Of a stretch of DNA of 32,428 bases, positions 14,894-25,454 are shown piece by piece. The notes beneath the pieces are model-generated. The model was not told the origin of the DNA. It saw nothing but the letters and a program-made list of their open reading frames with translations, and ran no database searches. The position numbers were made by a program, and so were the translations under genes. This stretch comes from Opitutaceae bacterium (GTDB taxonomy: Bacteria > Verrucomicrobiota > Verrucomicrobiia > Opitutales > Opitutaceae). The first letter of the stretch is position 1. Every line of letters starts with the position of its first letter. Where the stretch lies: positions 1 to 32,428 of the forward strand of contig JAEUGZ010000531.1 of the NCBI GenBank assembly GCA_016794725.1, in the 5' to 3' direction.

Positions 14894-17461
14894 TTAGGCG
14901 GGGCGAACCACCACCTGAACTCGCTTCTCCGCCCTCAAATAAGTTCGGGCGAAACGGGAAAGATCGTCGATCGTCACGGACTCGATTCGCCGATCGAAGT
15001 CCAGCCAGTCGTTGACGGGCTGTCCGTAGAGAGCATTCAGAGCGGCCTGCATGGCTCGGCTTGCATTCGTCTGCATGGACTGCCGCTTAGCCGCTTTGAG
15101 TCGCACCTGGCACCGTAGCAATTCGGCAGGTTCGATCTGCCCCGCCGCCACTCGGGCAATCTCGGCGTCAATCTCGGCCAGCACCTCGTCAGCGTGAACC
15201 GGCGCTGTTCCTGCATAAAAGTAAAACAACCCACCGCGCAATCCGACGACCCGGCTGGATCGAACGAAGTAGGCGAGCCCTTTCTCCTCTCGGACTCGCT
15301 CGAACAACCGCGATGCCATTCCACTGAAGAGCTCGTCCGCGACGTCCGCAACATACATATCGGCGTCAATTGCGCCCGGTCCCGGAAACCCCTGGAACAC
15401 CACCGCTTGTTCGCGCGGCTGGAGGTCGACGGAGTTCCCGTTCGCCGCAGGACCATCAAACGGCACGGGGAGCGGAGGTGGGGACTTCCGAGGAAGTTTC
15501 GCGAGGAATTTCTTCAGGTGCGGCAGCAGCTCTTTGCGGGAAAAGGCACCGGCCACGGCCAGAACCGCATTCCCACCCACCACCACCTGCTGGTGGAGTT
15601 TGCGAACATCGGCGGGAGAGAGTGCCTGCAATCCGGCGGGATCGCCATGGGAGTCGATTGCGAGCGGATGGTCCCCAAAGAAACGTCGCCGCAGGAGCTT
15701 TCGGCCGTAGGTAACGACATCGTCCGCATCCTGCTGCAGATCGGCGAGCTGGGCTCCACGCTCAATGTCAAACGTCTGGGGCTGAAACGCGGGCGCGAGC
15801 ACGGCGTCTCCCAGCAGGTCAATGGCGCGGAGGGAATCAGTGGGAAGCACCTCCAGGGAAAGGCCAAGGGCATTGTTTCCTGCAAACGACCCAAACGACC
15901 CGCCCACCTCCTCGATACGCTGCGCCACCTCGGCCGCTGTGCGGCGGCGGGTGTCTTTCGTGAGCAAGGTCGCAAGCAGTGCCGACGCACCACGCCGATT
16001 CGGGGCCTCAAGGCTCGGTCCCCCCATGAAGGCCATTCGAAAATGCAGATTGGGAATCCGACTGTCTTCCTGTAGCAACAACCGAGCCCCATTCGGAAGT
16101 CGAATTTCCTCAAACCCCGGGGAACGCAAACGGACCGTCTCGACCGATGGAGCGCGCGGAGCCTGCGCCAAGGGGCTGATGGAGACCGCAGTCTGGGTCT
16201 GGGGAATGAGATAGGTCCGAGCCAAGCGAACGAGATCGGCGGACGACAGTTTCCGGAGTCGATCAAAGTAGGTTCGTGTAAACCACAGGTCACCCACCAC
16301 CACTTCCGCCGCTCCCAGACGAGACGCCTGTCCCGACATCGTCTTTCTCGTATTGATTTCACCCACCATCAATTGGCGGATGGCCTTCCGGATTTGCGCG
16401 GGTGAAAAGCCTCGTCGGGTCACCTCCGCGAGGGTGCGCTCGATGCACTGGGTCGCCCGTTCTCGGCGGCCTGCATCGCACGTGAAGGAAACGTAGAAGA
16501 GGCCGGCTGTCCCGGGATTCCAGCTCGTGGCATCAATGGAGTGAACCAAACGCGCCTTTTCCCGGACCGCTCGCCACAATACCGAGCTGTCACCCGCGCC
16601 CAGCACCATCGCCAACAGCTCCAGTCCGGGCGCGTCTTCATGAGCCAGGCCCGGAATCTGCCAGGCCAGCCCCGCCCGCGTGAGTTCAACTCCCTCGTAA
16701 CGGTGATCGGACCGCGAGGCCAGCGCACGTGGCTCCTCGGGAATGACCACCGGAGCCAGGCGTCCGCGAGGCAGGACGCCCAGGTGGCTGTCCACCAGGC
16801 GCCGAACGGCCTCAGGCTCGACATCGCCGACCACCACGACCACGGTGTTGTTCGGTACGTATCTACCCTTATAGTACGAATATAGCTCATCCCGGCCGAC
16901 CCCGGAAAAAATCTCCCGGTGACCGATGATGGGAAGCCGGTAGGGATGCACCTTGAAGGCCGCCTCGAAGAGCGTCTCACCCAGCCGCTGGTCCGGATCG
17001 TCGCGCCCCATGTCGATCTCGCGAAGAATCACGTTCTTCTCCCGCTCGACCTCCTCCGCCGGCAGGGTGGAGCGGAACACGGCGTCCGCCAGCACATCGA
17101 CCGCCACCCCGACATGTTCACTCGGCAGATCGATGTAGTAGACGGTGCGATCAAAGGTCGTGTAGGCATTGATGTAGCCTCCATGAGCCTGGACGGTCGC
17201 ACTGATCTCCCGTCCGGCTCTTTTCTCCGTTCCCTTGAAAAGCATGTGTTCCAGGTAATGCGAAAGCCCCGCGCCGAGGAGGTCGCCCTCGTGGATACTG
17301 CCCGTCTTGACCCAGACCTGGACGGATGCGAGTGCTGCAGAGCTGTCCCGCTTGACGATCAAGGTGAGTCCATTCGGCAGCACCCATCGGTCGATGCTCT
17401 CCTTCCAGAAAGACTCGAGCAAATGGAGGTCAGAGGAGGCGGACGGCTGGGACTTCGACAT
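14894..17461 (-). CDS. M16 family zinc metallopeptidase, two-domain (full length)
   Basis: 855 residues comprising two tandem M16 units, as in pitrilysin-like or bacterial PqqL-like enzymes. The N-terminal unit has the inverted zinc motif HxxEH (SHYLEHMLFKGT: H68, E71, H72) and the third ligand E148 in EREKNVILREIDMG, 76 residues later as expected. NAYTTFDRTVYYIDLP and RYVPNNTVVVVVGDV are typical. The C-terminal unit (from about residue 430) has ARLLLQEDSRIPNLHFRMAF and GLRGGLFYFYAG but no HxxEH, so it is non-catalytic. No signal peptide is seen, suggesting a cytoplasmic protein. It follows the Minf_1886-family gene and precedes the EF-hand gene on the same strand. Confidence 0.9.
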   Translation of the reverse strand: MSKSQPSASSDLHLLESFWKESIDRWVLPNGLTLIVKRDSSAALASVQVWVKTGSIHEGDLLGAGLSHYLEHMLFKGTEKRAGREISATVQAHGGYINAYTTFDRTVYYIDLPSEHVGVAVDVLADAVFRSTLPAEEVEREKNVILREIDMGRDDPDQRLGETLFEAAFKVHPYRLPIIGHREIFSGVGRDELYSYYKGRYVPNNTVVVVVGDVEPEAVRRLVDSHLGVLPRGRLAPVVIPEEPRALASRSDHRYEGVELTRAGLAWQIPGLAHEDAPGLELLAMVLGAGDSSVLWRAVREKARLVHSIDATSWNPGTAGLFYVSFTCDAGRRERATQCIERTLAEVTRRGFSPAQIRKAIRQLMVGEINTRKTMSGQASRLGAAEVVVGDLWFTRTYFDRLRKLSSADLVRLARTYLIPQTQTAVSISPLAQAPRAPSVETVRLRSPGFEEIRLPNGARLLLQEDSRIPNLHFRMAFMGGPSLEAPNRRGASALLATLLTKDTRRRTAAEVAQRIEEVGGSFGSFAGNNALGLSLEVLPTDSLRAIDLLGDAVLAPAFQPQTFDIERGAQLADLQQDADDVVTYGRKLLRRRFFGDHPLAIDSHGDPAGLQALSPADVRKLHQQVVVGGNAVLAVAGAFSRKELLPHLKKFLAKLPRKSPPPLPVPFDGPAANGNSVDLQPREQAVVFQGFPGPGAIDADMYVADVADELFSGMASRLFERVREEKGLAYFVRSSRVVGLRGGLFYFYAGTAPVHADEVLAEIDAEIARVAAGQIEPAELLRCQVRLKAAKRQSMQTNASRAMQAALNALYGQPVNDWLDFDRRIESVTIDDLSRFARTYLRAEKRVQVVVRPA

Positions 17462-17528
17462 GAATAGGAATTCGATTCGGCACTACATGGAAACCGGCCC
17501 GGATATCAACCGGTCCCGTCCGAAAAAT

Positions 17529-17969
17529 CTAGACTGCCTCTCCCACCACGGACTTTGGCCATCCGGCAGGACGCGGATGCTTGGGCAGAAACGGTTTCAC
17601 AAATGCATCCTCAAACGAGTAGATGTCCGAAAAGTCCTCGCGCCGGTCATTGTCCGTCTTCGAAAAGACGTTGTATTCGATCAGGCTGAAAACGATATCA
17701 CCGAAGTCCGTACACGCGCGTATCCCCCAGCCGTTCAGCACGGTGATGGCCAGCGGGCCAAACTGATCCAACGCATAGGCCCTCAGACCGTCGAGAAGCT
17801 CGGGCCCACTGACATGCAGCGAGCGCTGCGCTCGATCCAGGTCACGCTTCTTGAGCTCCTTCACTGCATGATCAAGTCCATGCCGGGTAAAGGTATACGC
17901 TTTCGGATCAAAGCGCGGATCTTCCTTGCAAATCAATTCTACGATCTCGTCGAAGTCCAAATCCTGCAT
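17529..17969 (-). CDS. Minf_1886 family protein (Verrucomicrobia/Planctomycetes-restricted)
   Basis: 146 residues without signal peptide or membrane span. The segments YTFTRHGLDHAVKEL, RSLHVSGPELLDGLRAYALD, FGPLAITVLNGWGIRACTDF and GDIVFSLIEYNVFSKTDNDR match the Minf_1886 family as I know it, a short protein reported only from Verrucomicrobia, Planctomycetes and relatives, with no known function. It is the best taxonomic marker in the window. It is first in a minus-strand run, 67 bases before the M16 peptidase, and divergent from the Fur-family gene. Confidence 0.85.
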   Translation of the reverse strand: MQDLDFDEIVELICKEDPRFDPKAYTFTRHGLDHAVKELKKRDLDRAQRSLHVSGPELLDGLRAYALDQFGPLAITVLNGWGIRACTDFGDIVFSLIEYNVFSKTDNDRREDFSDIYSFEDAFVKPFLPKHPRPAGWPKSVVGEAV

Positions 17970-18119
17970 GGGCGGTCAGTCGAGTTTGCAGAGGGAACAC
18001 GGTTCCGCAATCATCCGCTTGCATGCCGCTGGGAGATTGCACTATGTTACCGCTGTCAGTCACCTCTTGTAACGCAAGTCATAGCAATTAATTACCCCTT
18101 ATACGTAGATTTCCAAATT

Positions 18120-18139
18120 GCGTCACGGACCGGTGACGC
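18120..18139. promoter_or_regulatory. Perfect inverted repeat 20 bases before the Fur-family start codon
   Basis: GCGTCAC (18120-18126) and GTGACGC (18133-18139) form a perfect 7-base inverted repeat with a 6-base spacer, the shape of a dimer operator. It does not resemble the classical Fur box. Autoregulation or control by another dimeric regulator is possible; an mRNA leader hairpin is the alternative. Confidence 0.4.
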
Positions 18140-18159
18140 TTTCTTTCAAACCATTAACC

Positions 18160-18690
18160 ATGATCGATACTCCAGAAACAAATACCGTGCTCGCTTCGGA
18201 TTCTTCCGCCGCAGGCACTCCGATTGAAGTTGCCGTCGCTCGTTTGCGGGCTGCGGGATTGCGCATCACGCAACCGCGCATTGCGATCCTAAATGCGCTC
18301 ATCCGGCGGGAGCAGCCGGCGAGCATTGAGCAGATTCATAATGATCTAAAAGGGAACACCTTCTGCGATCTGGTGACGGTCTATCGCTGTCTGGCTGCGT
18401 TTGAAGAACTTGACCTTGTTCGGCGTTGTTTCTTCCACAACGGAACCAGTTTGTGGCAGATTAATCTCGCTGGCGAAACGACCTATCACGTGGTTTGCAA
18501 GGTCACCAATTCCATGGAGCAATTGGATCCGCAAACGACCGCCGATCTCAATTCGGCGATCAAGCGCGTGGAAGATGTCCTGAAGTCACGCGGCTATTCG
18601 GACATCGGCCACATGGTCGAGTTTTTCGCTGTGAGCCCCGGCGCCAAAGTAGAAGGCGCGGGCAAACTCGCAGTCGACGCCGGTATGTGA
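18160..18690 (+). CDS. Fur family transcriptional regulator, atypical metal site
   Basis: 176 residues. After a 20-residue non-conserved leader comes the Fur winged helix: VARLRAAGLRITQPRIAIL, ALIRREQPASIEQIHNDLKG and LVTVYRCLAAFEELDLVRRC, all typical. The dimerisation domain is unusual: where Fur/PerR proteins have HHHHLxCxxCG, this one reads TYHVVCKVTNSMEQLD, keeping one His and one Cys and lacking the CxxC zinc knuckle and its C-terminal partner. Later histidines are few (IGHMVEFF). It may therefore sense something other than Fe through an altered site; this is inference. It converges on the superoxide dismutase gene with a shared terminator, hinting at oxidative or metal stress. Confidence 0.85.
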   Translation: MIDTPETNTVLASDSSAAGTPIEVAVARLRAAGLRITQPRIAILNALIRREQPASIEQIHNDLKGNTFCDLVTVYRCLAAFEELDLVRRCFFHNGTSLWQINLAGETTYHVVCKVTNSMEQLDPQTTADLNSAIKRVEDVLKSRGYSDIGHMVEFFAVSPGAKVEGAGKLAVDAGM

Positions 18691-18776: not shown

Positions 18777-19532
18777 TCAACTGCGGGCGAGCTGGAATCG
18801 CCGGTCGACCGCAGTCCAATTCAGGACTTTCCAGAATGCCTGCGCGTAGTCAGCGCGGCGGTTCTGGTAGGCGAGGTAGTAGGCATGCTCCCAGACATCG
18901 AGACCGATGAGCGGAAACGCAGCCTCTGAAAGCGGACTGTCCTGATTGGCCGTCGATGTGATCCGCAATTGTCCGGACTGGAACACCAGCCAGGCCCACC
19001 CGCTTCCAAAACGTTTCAGCCCGGCATCGACAAATTGATCCCGGAAAGCCTCCAATGAGCCGAAGGACGACCGGAGCGCGGCGCCAAGCTCAGTCCCGGG
19101 GCCCTGGGCACCGCCCGGTGTTAGTAATGTCCAGAAGAGGGAATGATTTACGTGACCACCGACATTGTTACGCACTGCTCCGCGGATTGACTCCGGGAGT
19201 GACCCCAGTTTCTCCAGAAGCGTCTCCGCCGACCACGCTTTCAGGTCAGGAAACTCCTGAAGGGCTCGATTGGCATTGTCGATGTACGTCTTGTGATGAC
19301 GCCCATGGTGAATCTCCATGGTCCGCGCGTCGATATGCGGCTCCAGGGCCGCGAATGCAAATCCCAGTGCTGGCAGGACAAACGGTTGAGAGGTCGAGGG
19401 CTTAACGGCAACCGGCGCGGCCCCCTGCACTGTACCCTGCCCCGCCAACGCAACCGCACCCACCCCACCCAACAGACGCAGCGCATCCCGTCGGGAGAAG
19501 TGGCCAGACTTGGGTTCCGGTGAAGACATCAT
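18777..19532 (-). CDS. Fe/Mn-type superoxide dismutase with Tat signal
   Basis: 251 residues from the double ATG at 19532. The N-terminus has a twin-arginine signal ([20 protein letters not shown]), so the folded metalloenzyme is probably exported through Tat to the periplasm. The mature part is an iron/manganese superoxide dismutase: [44 protein letters not shown] and [20 protein letters not shown]; metal ligands are His in EPHID, His in HVNHSLFW, Asp and His in DVWEH. GGHVNH and the ANQDSPL glutamine favour manganese-type chemistry over iron, though metal identity is uncertain. Lies 56 bases downstream of the ABC fusion gene, same strand. Confidence 0.9.
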
Positions 19533-19588: not shown

Positions 19589-22500
19589 TTACCTCGACGC
19601 CCCGCCGATTCGGATCCGCGGATCGAGCCAAAGCAGCAGCAAATCGCTGACGAGCGTGCCGAAGACCCCAAGCACGCTCATGACCATCAGCATGGACCCG
19701 GCCAGATAAATGTCTTCCGCCAGCAGCGCATCCAGCATCACCGGACCCACCATCGGCAAACTCAACACCAGCGCCACGATGGCTCCCCCCGAGACCAATT
19801 GCGGAAACAGCGCGCCAAGTCCGGAAACAAACGGGTTGAGTGCCAGGCGCACCGGATACTTGAAGAGCAGACGGATCGGCCTGACCCCCTTCGCGCGCGC
19901 GGTCGTAACATAGGGCTTTCTCAATTCGTCCAGTAGGTTGGCCCGCATCACCCGGATCATTCCCGCCGTTCCACCAAAACCCAGCACCACTACCGGTACC
20001 CAGACATGGCGCGCGAGGTCCAGCACCTTTCCCCAGGTCCATTCCGAACTCGTCGCATATTCGGGCGAGAAGAGGCCGGACACGGAAAGTCCCAGCCATT
20101 GGTTGGCGACGTACATGAGGACAATCGCGAGCAGGAAGCCGGGCACCGACATGCCGAGGAAACCAAACAGCGTCAATAGGTAGTCGCCCCACGAATACTG
20201 CTTGACGGCCGAAAATATGCCGGTCGGGAGCGCCAGCGCCCAGGTGAAAATCAACGTGGCAAGCGACACCACCACCGTCAGGGCGATGCGATCCCCCACC
20301 ACCGAATTCACCGATCGATTGTGCTCCATCGAAAGCCCGAGGTTGCCCTGCAGCAGACCCGCGTCCTCGGTCCGGAAACTGACAAACCAGTAAAGGCCGA
20401 CCCACCGGAGGTATCGCTTCGTCATGGATTCATTGAGATGAAAGTCGTTCCGCAGATCCGACACCATTTGATCCGAGGTCGATGTTCCCTGCATTTGGAG
20501 CTCCAGAACCCGTGAGTGGGCGAAATCCCCCGGAGGCAGTTGCACAATCACAAAGATGATCACCGACACGACGCCCAAGGTGGGCACCATCAACGCCAAC
20601 CGGCGTCCGATGAAGGGGTGCCGCGCCGCCGCCAGCACCAGCACGAGCAGCACCGAAGCAACCATGAGAACGCGAAGCACCGTCGAAAGCCAGGCCAGCC
20701 CGCCCGCAGTCTCACCCGGTTCGCCTGGTCTGCCTTCCCGGGCGAGCAGAATGGCGGGGTCGCCCTCCACCTTCAACATCGCCTCGCGCGTGGCAGCCAC
20801 AGTGGAGGGCGGGTCGGACGGCTGGTCCCAATAGTAGGTTTCCAGCCCACCATTCGCAGGCGACATCCAGATCGCACCCGTGATCACATTCTTCGGGACA
20901 TTCCTGAAGCCGTCCTTGACGACCACCAGTTGAGGAGGGGAGGTGGTCACGCTGATGTGCCAGACTTCCTCGGCATTGCTCGTTTGAATCTCCCGGAAGA
21001 GCGCAATCCGACGCGTCGGATCGGCCTCCTGAAACAACTGCTCGAGCCGTTCCATGTTGCGGCGCAGCGGATGCCCCGGGGGAGGCTCAAGCGACCCAGG
21101 CTTGTTCGCCCGCTCGTCACCATACACCCCGCCAAATTGATACCACTGCCCATAACCCGGGGCGAAAAACGACTCGACATAGGTGGGCACAAAGTTCCGC
21201 GACTCCACCAGCGGCATCGCCTCGCTCTCTCCGGTCCAGACCGTGAAATCGTGCTCGAACGCGGCCTTCTCTGCATAAAAGAGCGGCCGCGCCCGGATCC
21301 GCTGAATGCAGCGGATCCCCACCTTCGCCCAGTCATCCACCACAAATTGAGCCGGATCATTGCCGGTGAACTCGGTCATGTTCAGGTACCACGCCATCTT
21401 TGTTCCATCTGGAAACATCCGGTAGCCATCGCTGTCACGGGCGGTCAGTCCCAACTCATCCAGAATCGCATTGGCACGAGCGGGATCGTACTCGGTGAAA
21501 CTCTTGAACAGCGCTTCGCTGTAATAGTCCGATTGCGGCCCCGGATCGATCTGCGCCGGTTCGCCCTGGCCATTGAACAACGCCGCGATGATGTCCCTTC
21601 GGTTGATGGCGAGCGACAGCGCCTGTCGGAAGCGTTTATCGTTCAGAAACCTGACTTTCAAGGCCGTCTCCGGCCGGTCCGGATCAATGCGGCGATTGAT
21701 GACGGGGTAGATGGTAAACGGGGATCTTGTTCCCTGGTACCAATGGTAAACCGAGTATCCGTTCTTGCGCGCGGACCCCATCAGCAGAACATGGTCCTCA
21801 TAGCGCATGAAGCGGTCCTGCATGGAGAGATGTCCTCCGGACGCGGTCAGTCCAAACAGATTGTTGGGCCGGATGTCCATCACCAGCCGGTCCAGATAGG
21901 GCAGCTGGTTGCCGGCCCCGTCAACGGCGGCATAATAGGGATTCCGGACAAAGACGAACGGCGCGTTGGCGGTGTAGTTACGGTACACCCACGGCCAAAG
22001 CCTGGGGTGATCGGGGTTGTTCCATTGCCTGAGACGCTGATAAACCGCGCGGCTGCTGGAGAGCTGAAAGGCCTGCATGTGGCGCTGGATGAGCGCCTGG
22101 TCGCCCAGCTGCGGGTGAAACTGGCGAAGGTAGTGCGCCGGGGTGCAGTATTCCGAGTACTCCACCGGATTCTGAGCATAGGAGGCCAGACGCTCAATGA
22201 ACAGGGGATTTGGCTGCTGAAAAACAAACCTCACCGTGTAGTCATCGACCTTTTCCAGCGAACCCTGCCCCGCGGCATTGCGCAGCAACCGGGGCGCCGC
22301 CTCAAAAAAAAGCACCTCGTCCCGATACCAATAGACAAGATCGTCCGCCGTGAACGGCATCCCGTCGGACCAGCGCATGCCCCGGCGGAGCTCAAACGTG
22401 AACACCCGGAAGTCGGGTGACGCCTTCCAGGACTTGGCTGCGTGGGGCACAATTGGATACCCTTCAGGCGACCAGCGGACCAGATTCCCCCCGGAGAGGC

Positions 22501-22918
22501 GCCACGAAATGGTGTTGACGTCTGCATTCGACACCGCGAGCCGCTGCCAGGTGCCGCCAAACTTCCCCACCCCTTCCACTCCGACCAGCACCACCGGTTC
22601 TGGTCCCACCCTGGCAGCAACCGGCGGGAGCTTCCCCTCGCGGACCAGTTCGGCCAACACCGGCGCCTCTCCCTTCGGCCACCACGGCTCGCGGGGATCC
22701 TGCGAATAGACCACGTCCTTTTGGATCCGCGGCGGATTCTCACGATGCAGGGTCATCTCTCTCGACTTTTCGACCTCCGCCAGAGCACGCGCCTCGGGTG
22801 CCGGCGGCGGGGTGGTGACGTCGGGGCGAAAACCGAGGCCGAACAAGTAGAGGACCAACGTCAGTCCCAAAGCGGCCAGCAGGAATCCAAGAAGGGGCTT
22901 GATGACACTCGTTCTCAC
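19589..22918 (-). CDS. Fused solute-binding protein / DppB-type permease of an ABC peptide transporter
   Basis: About 1109 residues from GTG at 22918 (another GTG at 23002 is possible). A membrane segment (residues 6-28, [20 protein letters not shown]) anchors an extracytoplasmic family 5 solute-binding domain, roughly 80-720: [58 protein letters not shown] and [15 protein letters not shown] are typical of DppA/OppA proteins. After a second membrane segment near 743-762 comes a DppB/OppB-like permease (767-1109) with [31 protein letters not shown] and the EAA-type cytoplasmic loop [16 protein letters not shown]. The fusion is one continuous frame. No second permease (DppC) or ATPases (DppD/F) are adjacent; the next gene on this strand is sod. 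Confidence 0.9.
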
Positions 22919-23059
22919 GGGCTCACCCAAGGCAACCGTCGGAAGCGGGGGAAGCAACGCCCTTCGCCGGGCGGGGTGCTTAATGTTATCCCGGCACCTC
23001 ACTCGAGGCGCGGGAACCGGACTTGCGGTCCCGCGGCTGATCCGACAGGTTCGCGGGAG

Positions 23060-23923
23060 ATGTCAAACCCGGTCACTCGCCGCCAGGCGCTCGCTACGCT
23101 CACCGGCGCCGTGCTTGCCACGGCCGCCTCATCGTCACGCGGGAACACCCCCACCCCCCCCACAACCATGTCCTCGATCCGCCACTCCGTCTGCAAATGG
23201 TGTTACCCGAAGATTCCTCTGGCCGACTTGGCGCGCGCAGGCGCGAAATTCGGACTGCAGTCGATTGAACTGCTCGGTCCGAAGGAATGGCCGGTGGTCA
23301 AGGAATTCGGTCTGACTTGTGCCATTTCCAACGGGCCCAGCACGATCCCGGACGGATTCAACCGGCGGGAAAATCACGCAAAACTGATTCCTGCTTTTCA
23401 CGAACGCATCCGCGAATGTGAAGAGGCCGGCATTCCCAATGTCATTTGTTTCTCCGGCAACCGACGGGGTCAAAGCGACGAAGAAGGACTCGAGATCTGT
23501 GCCGAGGGGATCAAGCAAATCGTCGCCGAGGCCGAAAAACGCAGGGTGACCGTTTGCATGGAGTTGCTCAACAGTCGCGTGAATCACAAAGACTACCAAT
23601 GCGATCGCACTCCGTGGGGCGTGGAACTCTGCAAACGAGTCGGCTCCGAGCGATTCAAGCTGCTCTACGACATTTACCACATGCAGATCATGGAGGGTGA
23701 TGTGATTCGCACGATCCAAACCCATCACACCTACTTTGGCCACTACCACACCGGAGGAAACCCGGGTCGAAACGAAATCGACGAGACTCAGGAGCTTTAC
23801 TATCCAGCGATCATGCGGGCCATCAAGGAAACGGGGTATGCGGGATTTGTCGGCCAGGAGTTCATTCCCAAACGCGATCCGCTGACCTCGCTGGAGGAAG
23901 CGATCAAGCTCTGCGCGGTCTAG
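23060..23923 (+). CDS. Hydroxypyruvate isomerase-like TIM-barrel protein with Tat-like signal
   Basis: 287 residues. The first 30 (VTRRQALATLTGAVLATAAS) look like a Tat signal peptide. The rest is an AP-endonuclease-2/xylose-isomerase-like TIM barrel of the hydroxypyruvate isomerase (Hyi) type: CKWCYPKIPLADLARAGAKF, VTVCMELLNSRVNHKDYQ (first catalytic Glu), LLYDIYHMQIMEGDVIRTI, GHYHTGGNPGRNEIDETQEL and GYAGFVGQEFIPKRDP (second Glu). Hyi interconverts hydroxypyruvate and tartronate semialdehyde; for exported relatives the substrate is unclear. ATG at 23168 would give a cytoplasmic form. Divergent from the ABC fusion gene and followed by a hairpin before gatB. Confidence 0.85.
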   Translation: MSNPVTRRQALATLTGAVLATAASSSRGNTPTPPTTMSSIRHSVCKWCYPKIPLADLARAGAKFGLQSIELLGPKEWPVVKEFGLTCAISNGPSTIPDGFNRRENHAKLIPAFHERIRECEEAGIPNVICFSGNRRGQSDEEGLEICAEGIKQIVAEAEKRRVTVCMELLNSRVNHKDYQCDRTPWGVELCKRVGSERFKLLYDIYHMQIMEGDVIRTIQTHHTYFGHYHTGGNPGRNEIDETQELYYPAIMRAIKETGYAGFVGQEFIPKRDPLTSLEEAIKLCAV

Positions 23924-23955
23924 GCAGGCTCACCTCAGATAAGAAGCTCCACCGT

Positions 23956-23980
23956 GGGTTGGTTTTCGTCCAACCCCGTT
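23956..23980 (+). terminator. Probable terminator after the hydroxypyruvate isomerase-like gene
   Basis: GGGTTGG (23956-23962), loop TTTTCGT, CCAACCC (23970-23976), then CGTTTA. A clean 7-base stem in the 76-base convergent gap before gatB, but the T-run is short, so it may be weak. Confidence 0.5.
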
Positions 23981-23999
23981 TAGTCCCACCAAACGCTGT

Positions 24000-25454
24000 T
24001 CACAGCGCGGCGAGTAACCGCCGCAGCGTTTCGTCGACCAGCTTGGGATTGGCCTTGCCCTTGGAGGCCTTCATCACGGGCCCCTTGAAGGCGTTCAGCG
24101 CACTTTCCTTACCCGCCTTGAAATCCGAAACCGACTTTGGGTTTCCGGCGAGTGCATCGCGGCACCACTGCTCAAGTTCTCCCGCATTGGTTTCAGCCCG
24201 CAAGCCTCGGCGGTCGACAATCGCTCCCGGCAGTTCGCCCGTAGCAAACATCTCCGCGAAGACTTCGCGCGCCGCCGATGTCAAGAGTGTGCCGGAGTCG
24301 ATCAGCTTCACCAACTCGGCAACATGGATCGGAGTGAGCCGGGAGTCTGCCAATGCGACTTTCGCCGCGCCGAGCTCGCGCAGCAGATCATTGGCGATCC
24401 AGTTTCCCACCATTTGGGCGCGACCGGGGCCGGCCGCGGCCACGGCGGCTTCAAAATAGTCGCTCAACCCGCGATCAGGAACGAGCACGGATGTGATCGT
24501 ATAGGGAATCTGATAGTGCGCAATAAACCGACGCTGCTTCTCAAACGGCAATTCAGGACACGTCTCTCGTAGACGCTGTTTCCACGCTTCATCCACCTTG
24601 ACCGGCATGAGATCCGGATCCGGAAAATAGCGGTAGTCGTGCGCCATTTCTTTCGACCGAAGGGACTGCGAGGTTCCAGTCTGGCCATCATAGTCACGCG
24701 TCTCTTGCACAATGGTCCCTCCCGATCCCAGGACGGCCACCTGTCGACGGATCTCGTGGGCGATACCATCACGCACAAATGAAATTGAGTTGAGATTTTT
24801 CAGCTCAACTTTCGTCCCCAAGGTCGTCTGCCCCACCGGTCGAATCGAAATGTTCGCGTCACACCGCATCTGGCCCTTCTCCATGTCGCAATCCGATATG
24901 CCCGCATACACCATTGCCATCCGCAGCGAGGTCAAAAATGCGAACGCTTCCTCGGCCGAGTGCATCGCCGGCTCAGAGACAATTTCCATCAGCGGTGTGC
25001 CCGCACGATTAAAATCGATCAGGGAATCTGTGGCGCCGTGGTTTAATTTGCCCACGTCTTCCTCAAGGTGAATCCGAGTGAGGGGAATTTGTTTGTGCTC
25101 TCCCTGAATATTCCGGGCCGGGCCGGGCAGTTCGATCTCAACCGAGCCACCCCGGCACATCGGCTGGTCATACTGCGAGATCTGATAGTTCTTCGGCGAG
25201 TCGGGGTAGAAGTAGTTTTTCCGATCCCATTTGCAGACCGGAGCAATCTCACTTCCCAAGAGCAGGCCCGCCTTCACGATCGCGTCGATCGCGGCCTTGT
25301 TCATCACGGGCAGGACGCCAGGCAAGGCGAGGATCACCGGGTCCGTCAGGGTGTTGGCATCGTGGCCATAGCCCGCCGCCACGCGGGTGAACATCTTGGA
25401 CTGGGTCTTGATCTGAACGTGGACCTCAAGTCCGATGACCGCTTCGTAGTTCAT
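24000..25454 (-). CDS. gatB: Asp-tRNA(Asn)/Glu-tRNA(Gln) amidotransferase subunit B
   Basis: 484 residues, the usual GatB length. It starts MNYEAVIGLEVHVQIKTQSK and continues with the kinase-like core: RKNYFYPDSPKNYQISQYD, RIHLEEDVGKLNH, LIDFNRAGTPLMEIVSEP, MRCDANISIRPVG and KVELKNLNSISFVRDGIAHE. The C-terminal YqeY-like tail, ending NPKLVDETLRRLLAAL, binds tRNA. GatB activates misacylated Glu-tRNA(Gln) or Asp-tRNA(Asn) by phosphorylation; ammonia comes from GatA. Last gene of the translation cluster, 59 bases after gatA. Confidence 0.96.
   Translation of the reverse strand: MNYEAVIGLEVHVQIKTQSKMFTRVAAGYGHDANTLTDPVILALPGVLPVMNKAAIDAIVKAGLLLGSEIAPVCKWDRKNYFYPDSPKNYQISQYDQPMCRGGSVEIELPGPARNIQGEHKQIPLTRIHLEEDVGKLNHGATDSLIDFNRAGTPLMEIVSEPAMHSAEEAFAFLTSLRMAMVYAGISDCDMEKGQMRCDANISIRPVGQTTLGTKVELKNLNSISFVRDGIAHEIRRQVAVLGSGGTIVQETRDYDGQTGTSQSLRSKEMAHDYRYFPDPDLMPVKVDEAWKQRLRETCPELPFEKQRRFIAHYQIPYTITSVLVPDRGLSDYFEAAVAAAGPGRAQMVGNWIANDLLRELGAAKVALADSRLTPIHVAELVKLIDSGTLLTSAAREVFAEMFATGELPGAIVDRRGLRAETNAGELEQWCRDALAGNPKSVSDFKAGKESALNAFKGPVMKASKGKANPKLVDETLRRLLAAL

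Follow-up and report, generated by a model that had tools for sequence, protein, structure and literature searches.

The window, a 32,428-nucleotide stretch of DNA from an Opitutaceae bacterium, carries on its minus strand a fusion gene (22918 to 19589) that encodes a family 5 solute-binding receptor (SBP) and a DppB-type permease together. The gene was read as a single open frame of 1,109 codons, starting with GTG at 22918 and containing no internal stop. The stop-to-stop frame holds a further GTG upstream, at 23002, giving the 1,137-amino-acid frame on which the Pfam match numbering is based; the orthologue L030 can be extended at most about 9 codons past the 22918 start. Only 56 nucleotides downstream lies a gene for an Fe/Mn superoxide dismutase (SOD) with a twin-arginine-like signal (18777 to 19532, minus strand; Pfam Sod_Fe_N/C). 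The two genes are probably cotranscribed, and their adjacency and close spacing are kept in six other loci (L030, L032, L033, L048, L062, and L098). A convergent gene (18160 to 18690, plus strand) encodes a probable Fur-family regulator, as judged from its translation, and its synteny is kept in other loci. On the other side, a divergent gene (23060 to 23923, plus strand), conserved beside the fusion, encodes a 287-amino-acid TIM barrel isomerase-like protein with a secretion signal, the family name coming from a reading of the sequence. The order GatB, divergent isomerase-like gene, fusion, SOD, Fur, and M16 peptidase recurs, though with gaps, in a dozen Opitutaceae-type loci; at the window locus the syntenic block spans 14894 to 18690 and 23060 to 25454, on either side of the SOD and fusion genes.

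The initial annotation had proposed that one uninterrupted frame joins a binding domain to a permease, and a search for the two Pfam domains that it had named bore this out: SBP_bac_5 (E value of 1e-49) and BPD_transp_1 (E value of 7e-27) both matched, with a weak BPD_transp_1_N match between them. From the N to the C terminus, the layout is a membrane anchor, a family 5 solute-binding domain, a disordered linker, a second membrane helix, and a DppB-type permease with its coupling loop. An AlphaFold model for which the window sequence was supplied together with 43 relatives had a mean pLDDT of 80.7, lower in the permease, and placed helices at residues 3 to 29 and 742 to 766, flanking a well-predicted two-lobed receptor at about residues 84 to 700; Kyte-Doolittle hydrophobic segments at 9 to 27 and 747 to 765, ahead of the DppB-type helices, agree with the model. 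Both membrane segments that the annotation had predicted before the permease are thus upheld. The anchor (22832 to 22912; this and the following coordinates are on the minus strand) lacks a lipobox and precedes the extracytoplasmic binding domain (20819 to 22669). The linker, residues 701 to 741 (20696 to 20818), is poorly conserved, and its residues 730 to 741, with pLDDT values below 50, are predicted to be disordered. Between the window protein and its orthologue in G009, a genome of the same genus, identity is 62% in residues 701 to 745 and 91% in the receptor; constraint is tight in the receptor and permease and looser in the linker and second helix. This helix (20621 to 20695) would be needed because the receptor has to be outside and the amino end of a DppB permease inside, so that the chain must recross the membrane. 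The B-type permease (PermB) frames of unfused relatives are mostly of DppB size, 328 to 370 codons, with no space for an extra helix. The fused permease domain, residues 768 to 1104 (19607 to 20617), matched the E. coli DppB structure 8z1v with an E value of 5e-23, and its best NCBIfam matches were Opp4B, Opp2B, NikB, and DppB, all under the model cutoffs. Its 25-residue cytoplasmic coupling (EAA-like) loop, at about residues 1005 to 1029 (19832 to 19903), is nearly invariant across alignments of the fusion family, in keeping with the DppB-like permease and EAA loop initially annotated.

The G009 orthologue, the nearest, is 87 to 88% identical over the full length, and comparison with it gave a dN/dS ratio of about 0.06 (dN, 0.087; dS, 1.45); judged from sequence, a frame of this length under such constraint is far beyond chance. 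All 43 relatives (42 to 87% identical) are uninterrupted, share the layout of the window protein, and can be aligned to it over their whole length. A second fusion in the window's own genome, on contig C504, is 62% identical. In a tree of PermB domains, the fused sequences group in a single clade (SH-aLRT of 99), outside which lie unfused sequences from Rhizobium, Roseomonas, Chloroflexota, Latescibacterota, and Bacillota; the receptor tree concurs, with support of 100 for one fused clade. No intact split copy was found within this clade, its only two split copies, L048 and L066, having frame breaks in draft genomes. The first of these (7070 to 10399 on contig C420 of G001), a same-genus orthologue, is split by frame changes and is either a draft error or a decaying copy. 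Evolutionary resplitting of the fusion is unconvincing for such cases. Unfused relatives have the gene order SBP, PermB, PermC (the C-type permease), ATPase, ATPase, and since SBP and PermB are adjacent in these operons, a single fusion of two neighboring genes is the simplest reading. By these trees and alignments, the fusion is a conserved, single-origin design in Verrucomicrobia and some other phyla. Its named hosts belong to Verrucomicrobiota (Opitutaceae/Opitutales), Lentisphaerota (Victivallis and another), Planctomycetota (Phycisphaerae and others), and Raymondbacteria, with one Spirochaetes MAG, and 18 of 241 genomes in an even draw of the window's phylum carry it. Plasmid records among the best matches listed held only unfused neighbors, mainly from Rhizobiales. 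At locus L043 (3621 to 4955 on contig C25 of G049), a truncated receptor-only copy lies directly upstream of a full fusion, which suggests tandem duplication and decay.

The receptor falls in cluster C and resembles SPH1118 and MelB by both sequence and structure. Its closest solved relatives by sequence are 5ipw (annotated as OppA), SPH1118, and AgpA/MelB. Structural Z scores were 42 for 5ipw, 40 for SPH1118 (7ver), and 32 for MelB (6epy), those of peptide, nickel, and chitin receptors were near 24, and the range over cluster C structures was 22 to 42. Fold and size match those of the SPH1118-GalUA complex 7veu (Z score of 40.5; rmsd of 2.2 over 593 residues). Among solved relatives whose ligands are known, the best are SPH1118 (oligogalacturonate) and MelB Atu4661 (raffinose and galactinol). 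SPH1118 of Sphingomonas sp. A1 binds pectin and unsaturated trigalacturonate, and its authors left peptide binding open (PMC9314435, PMC7055323). In the window receptor, Arg57, Arg438, and Asp483 of SPH1118 are replaced by W139, F517, and W561, at positions where most relatives also have aromatic residues; Arg466, Arg496, and Glu505 are retained, and Phe592 and Trp594 lie beyond the aligned stretch. The binding cleft thus appears to be sugar friendly rather than pectate specific. Pectate is not supported as the exact ligand, the key Arg57 and Arg438 being absent. Seven further, far more typical family 5 binding proteins, not of the fused kind and scoring about 300 to 320 bits, are encoded in the window's genome (G000 contigs C232, C293, C249, C179, C150, C87, and C379).

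Genes adjoining the fusions also bear on the substrate. The paralogue on C504 adjoins genes for a GH67 alpha-glucuronidase and a sulfatase, and other operonic copies lie beside GH2, GH3, GH5, GH42, GH95/65, heparinase-like, enolase-superfamily, and sialate esterase-like (SASA) genes, in a survey that covered the fusion loci themselves. On C504 (locus L029, 6561 to 12086), the fusion, a PhoD-like gene, the sulfatase, and the alpha-glucuronidase stand in a row on the same strand. No glycoside hydrolase gene neighbors the fusion at the window locus. Together, the sugar-binding solved relatives and the carbohydrate-active neighbors of operonic paralogues suggest an oligosaccharide more than a peptide as the substrate. 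The labels "DppA-type" and "peptide-type" in the initial annotation were therefore not sustained for the receptor, which belongs to a large SPH1118/MelB-like group with relatives among carbohydrate degradation genes; the permease itself is of the Dpp/Opp/Nik class. That the protein is nonetheless part of a peptide importer, a Dpp/Opp system with a tethered DppA for which the annotation as an oligopeptide transporter is right, seems unlikely. The class of the permease and ATPases, the OppA annotation of 5ipw, the syntenic M16 peptidase near the window copy, and a gene matching peptidase M14 that precedes one operonic copy all fit such an importer, but the nearest relatives with proven ligands bind sugars and carbohydrate-active genes surround the operonic paralogues. 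In addition, in an uncertain alignment that takes in the two DppA residues gripping either end of the dipeptide, Arg383 is not conserved (D, E, N, and others occupy its column in the fusion family), and Asp436 aligns with E in 20 of 44 sequences and with D in 3.

Operonic fusions are followed by PermC, ATPase D, and ATPase F, in genes that often overlap or nearly so. Near solo fusions, the window copy included, neither PermC nor ATPases were found within the stretches read, and they are missing from the locus of every SOD-linked relative. We searched for partners in 12 near relatives, including the window's own genome, and in 14 more genomes of the phylum. Cognate PermC-D-F cassettes lie elsewhere in the genome on G009 C48, G025 C71, G031 C25, G033 C50, G015 C23, and G001 C127. 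Neither the lack of partners at the window locus and their unlinked presence nor the breadth of the fusion family figured in the initial annotation. A cognate ATPase D was present in every fusion genome checked, and PermC accompanied all but the second set of the window's genome; in the 14 further genomes, PermC and ATPase D were found in 14 of 14. On contig C561 of the window's genome, the ATPase D gene opens at base 5, with F after it. Since these genes start at the contig edge and are colinear with the G009 C-D-F cassette (about 79% DNA identity), the second PermC was probably lost off the end of the contig. An orphan or decaying gene was discounted, given the dN/dS ratio, the intact coupling loop, and the unlinked partner cassettes.

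In GlnPQ and OpuA, members of another ABC class, a receptor domain is covalently joined to a permease that is homodimeric, so that each pore carries two or more receptors; the partner of the fusion described here would instead be a distinct C permease, and the presence of a cognate PermC in the genomes of the relatives tested suggests a heterodimer. A solo copy such as that in the window could have ceased to work with PermC, acting as a homodimer with two receptors per pore in the manner of GlnPQ and OpuA, or serving in sensing instead of transport. The bare loci of the SOD-linked relatives, together with the conserved association with SOD and the probable Fur regulator, lend this some appeal, but each solo-copy genome still has a cognate C-D-F cassette at another site, or the remnant of one at a contig edge, and the coupling loop is intact, and we consider such a departure quite improbable.

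Among close relatives of the query, to which the tallies are confined, fusions, PermC genes, and ATPase pairs numbered 1/1/1 in G025 and G055 and 2/2/2 in G009 and G031; they numbered 4/3/1 in G020, 3/2/1 in the single-contig genome G040, and about 4/1/1 in G049, where one fusion is truncated. The ATPases of G040 are unlinked, as are those of G072, also a single contig, where a fusion with PermC lies about 276 kb from ATPases D and F. The occurrence of several fusions per ATPase pair and of unlinked ATPases led us to propose, from gene counts, exchangeable modules on a shared motor: specificity might be changed by swapping receptor-plus-half-permease chains that compete for one C permease and one ATPase pair from other sites in the genome. 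We advance this tentatively, as a possibility slightly short of even. Common components serving several receptors or transporters are known: in Pseudomonas aeruginosa, DppA1 to DppA5 share DppBCDF (PMC4206461), and MsmK is a shared sugar ATPase (PMC4519317). The swapped parts in those systems are lone receptors or complete permeases, whereas here the receptor would come with half a permease.

One transcript and one frame could also yield a protein that is cleaved posttranslationally, leaving an anchored receptor separate from the permease. The poorly conserved, disordered linker could be cut, but no cleavage signal was recognizable and the N-terminal helix would keep the receptor anchored all the same, so we regard cleavage as very unlikely. 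An artifact in which an assembly error or frameshift merged two neighboring genes has a negligible probability: the window's genome is a draft of 641 contigs and unfused relatives have both genes adjacent in the same order, but the 43 uninterrupted relatives, from many assemblies, rule it out and exclude the stop or frameshift near 20600 to 20700 that would have overturned the initial annotation, while the fusions in G040 and G072, the extra helix of the fused forms, and the low dN/dS ratio also speak against it.

The reading that we favor as probable is a Type I ABC importer of the peptide/opine/nickel class in which the window gene supplies the receptor together with half of the permease, its partners being unlinked and oligosaccharides the most likely cargo. 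The chain would begin in the cytoplasm, cross the membrane once, place its binding domain in the periplasm, cross back through the extra helix, and run on into the B-type half-permease. Having caught its ligand, the tethered receptor would dock onto its own half-channel, which would pair with a separate C permease and the D and F ATPases, each transporter then holding a single receptor. For the window copy, the partners would come from a C-D-F cassette away from the fusion gene; in relatives with a few fusions per ATPase pair, the fusions may serve as interchangeable substrate modules driven by a common engine. The domains and helices support the earlier view of a tethered single polypeptide with two membrane segments and a receptor attached to a single half of the pore, and the altered stoichiometry (1:1) predicted on that model can fairly be inferred.

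By its domains and partners, as read from sequence, the system is of the peptide/opine/nickel class and departs from it in the fused receptor. It comprises a family 5 (cluster C) domain, a B-type permease with a coupling loop, a C-type permease, and two ATPases, the last three subunits being encoded next to the fusion in operonic relatives and, without linkage to the window copy, at other sites in fusion genomes. The usual Dpp/Opp/Nik receptor is separate, whereas here it shares a single frame with the permease in the window and in the 43 relatives. DppABCDF and OppABCDF of E. coli likewise have a family 5 receptor, B and C permeases, and two ATPases of the D/F kind, but the fusion merges the receptor and B permease into one polypeptide, adds a helix, and probably takes a sugar as its substrate. 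E. coli DppA is a free, diffusing periplasmic protein needed to activate DppBCDF, and the Dpp and Opp receptors of Mycobacterium tuberculosis stay bound (PMC12136057), so importers of this class can accommodate a permanently attached receptor. SPH1118 and MelB share the receptor fold and size but are separate soluble proteins. The naturally occurring MalE-MalF fusion of Licht et al. (2019), cited in PMC7756565 as transport competent, similarly joins a receptor to a single subunit of a sugar permease that is heterodimeric. It differs in belonging to the maltose family, with another receptor group and permease family. We found no described receptor-permease fusion of the peptide/opine/nickel class in open-access text, and domain databases may catalogue the arrangement. 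Receptor-permease fusions are already known from GlnPQ, OpuA, and MalE-MalF, and what is added here is the variant in this class.

The fusion extends the receptor-permease design to the Dpp/Opp/Nik importers. If the 1:1 stoichiometry is true, it would provide a natural one-receptor-per-pore transporter with which the need for receptor dissociation in transport can be tested. The gene tallies suggest receptor/half-permease chains on one common motor, a proposal that is directly testable, and Verrucomicrobiota and Planctomycetota genes annotated as peptide transporters may import oligosaccharides.
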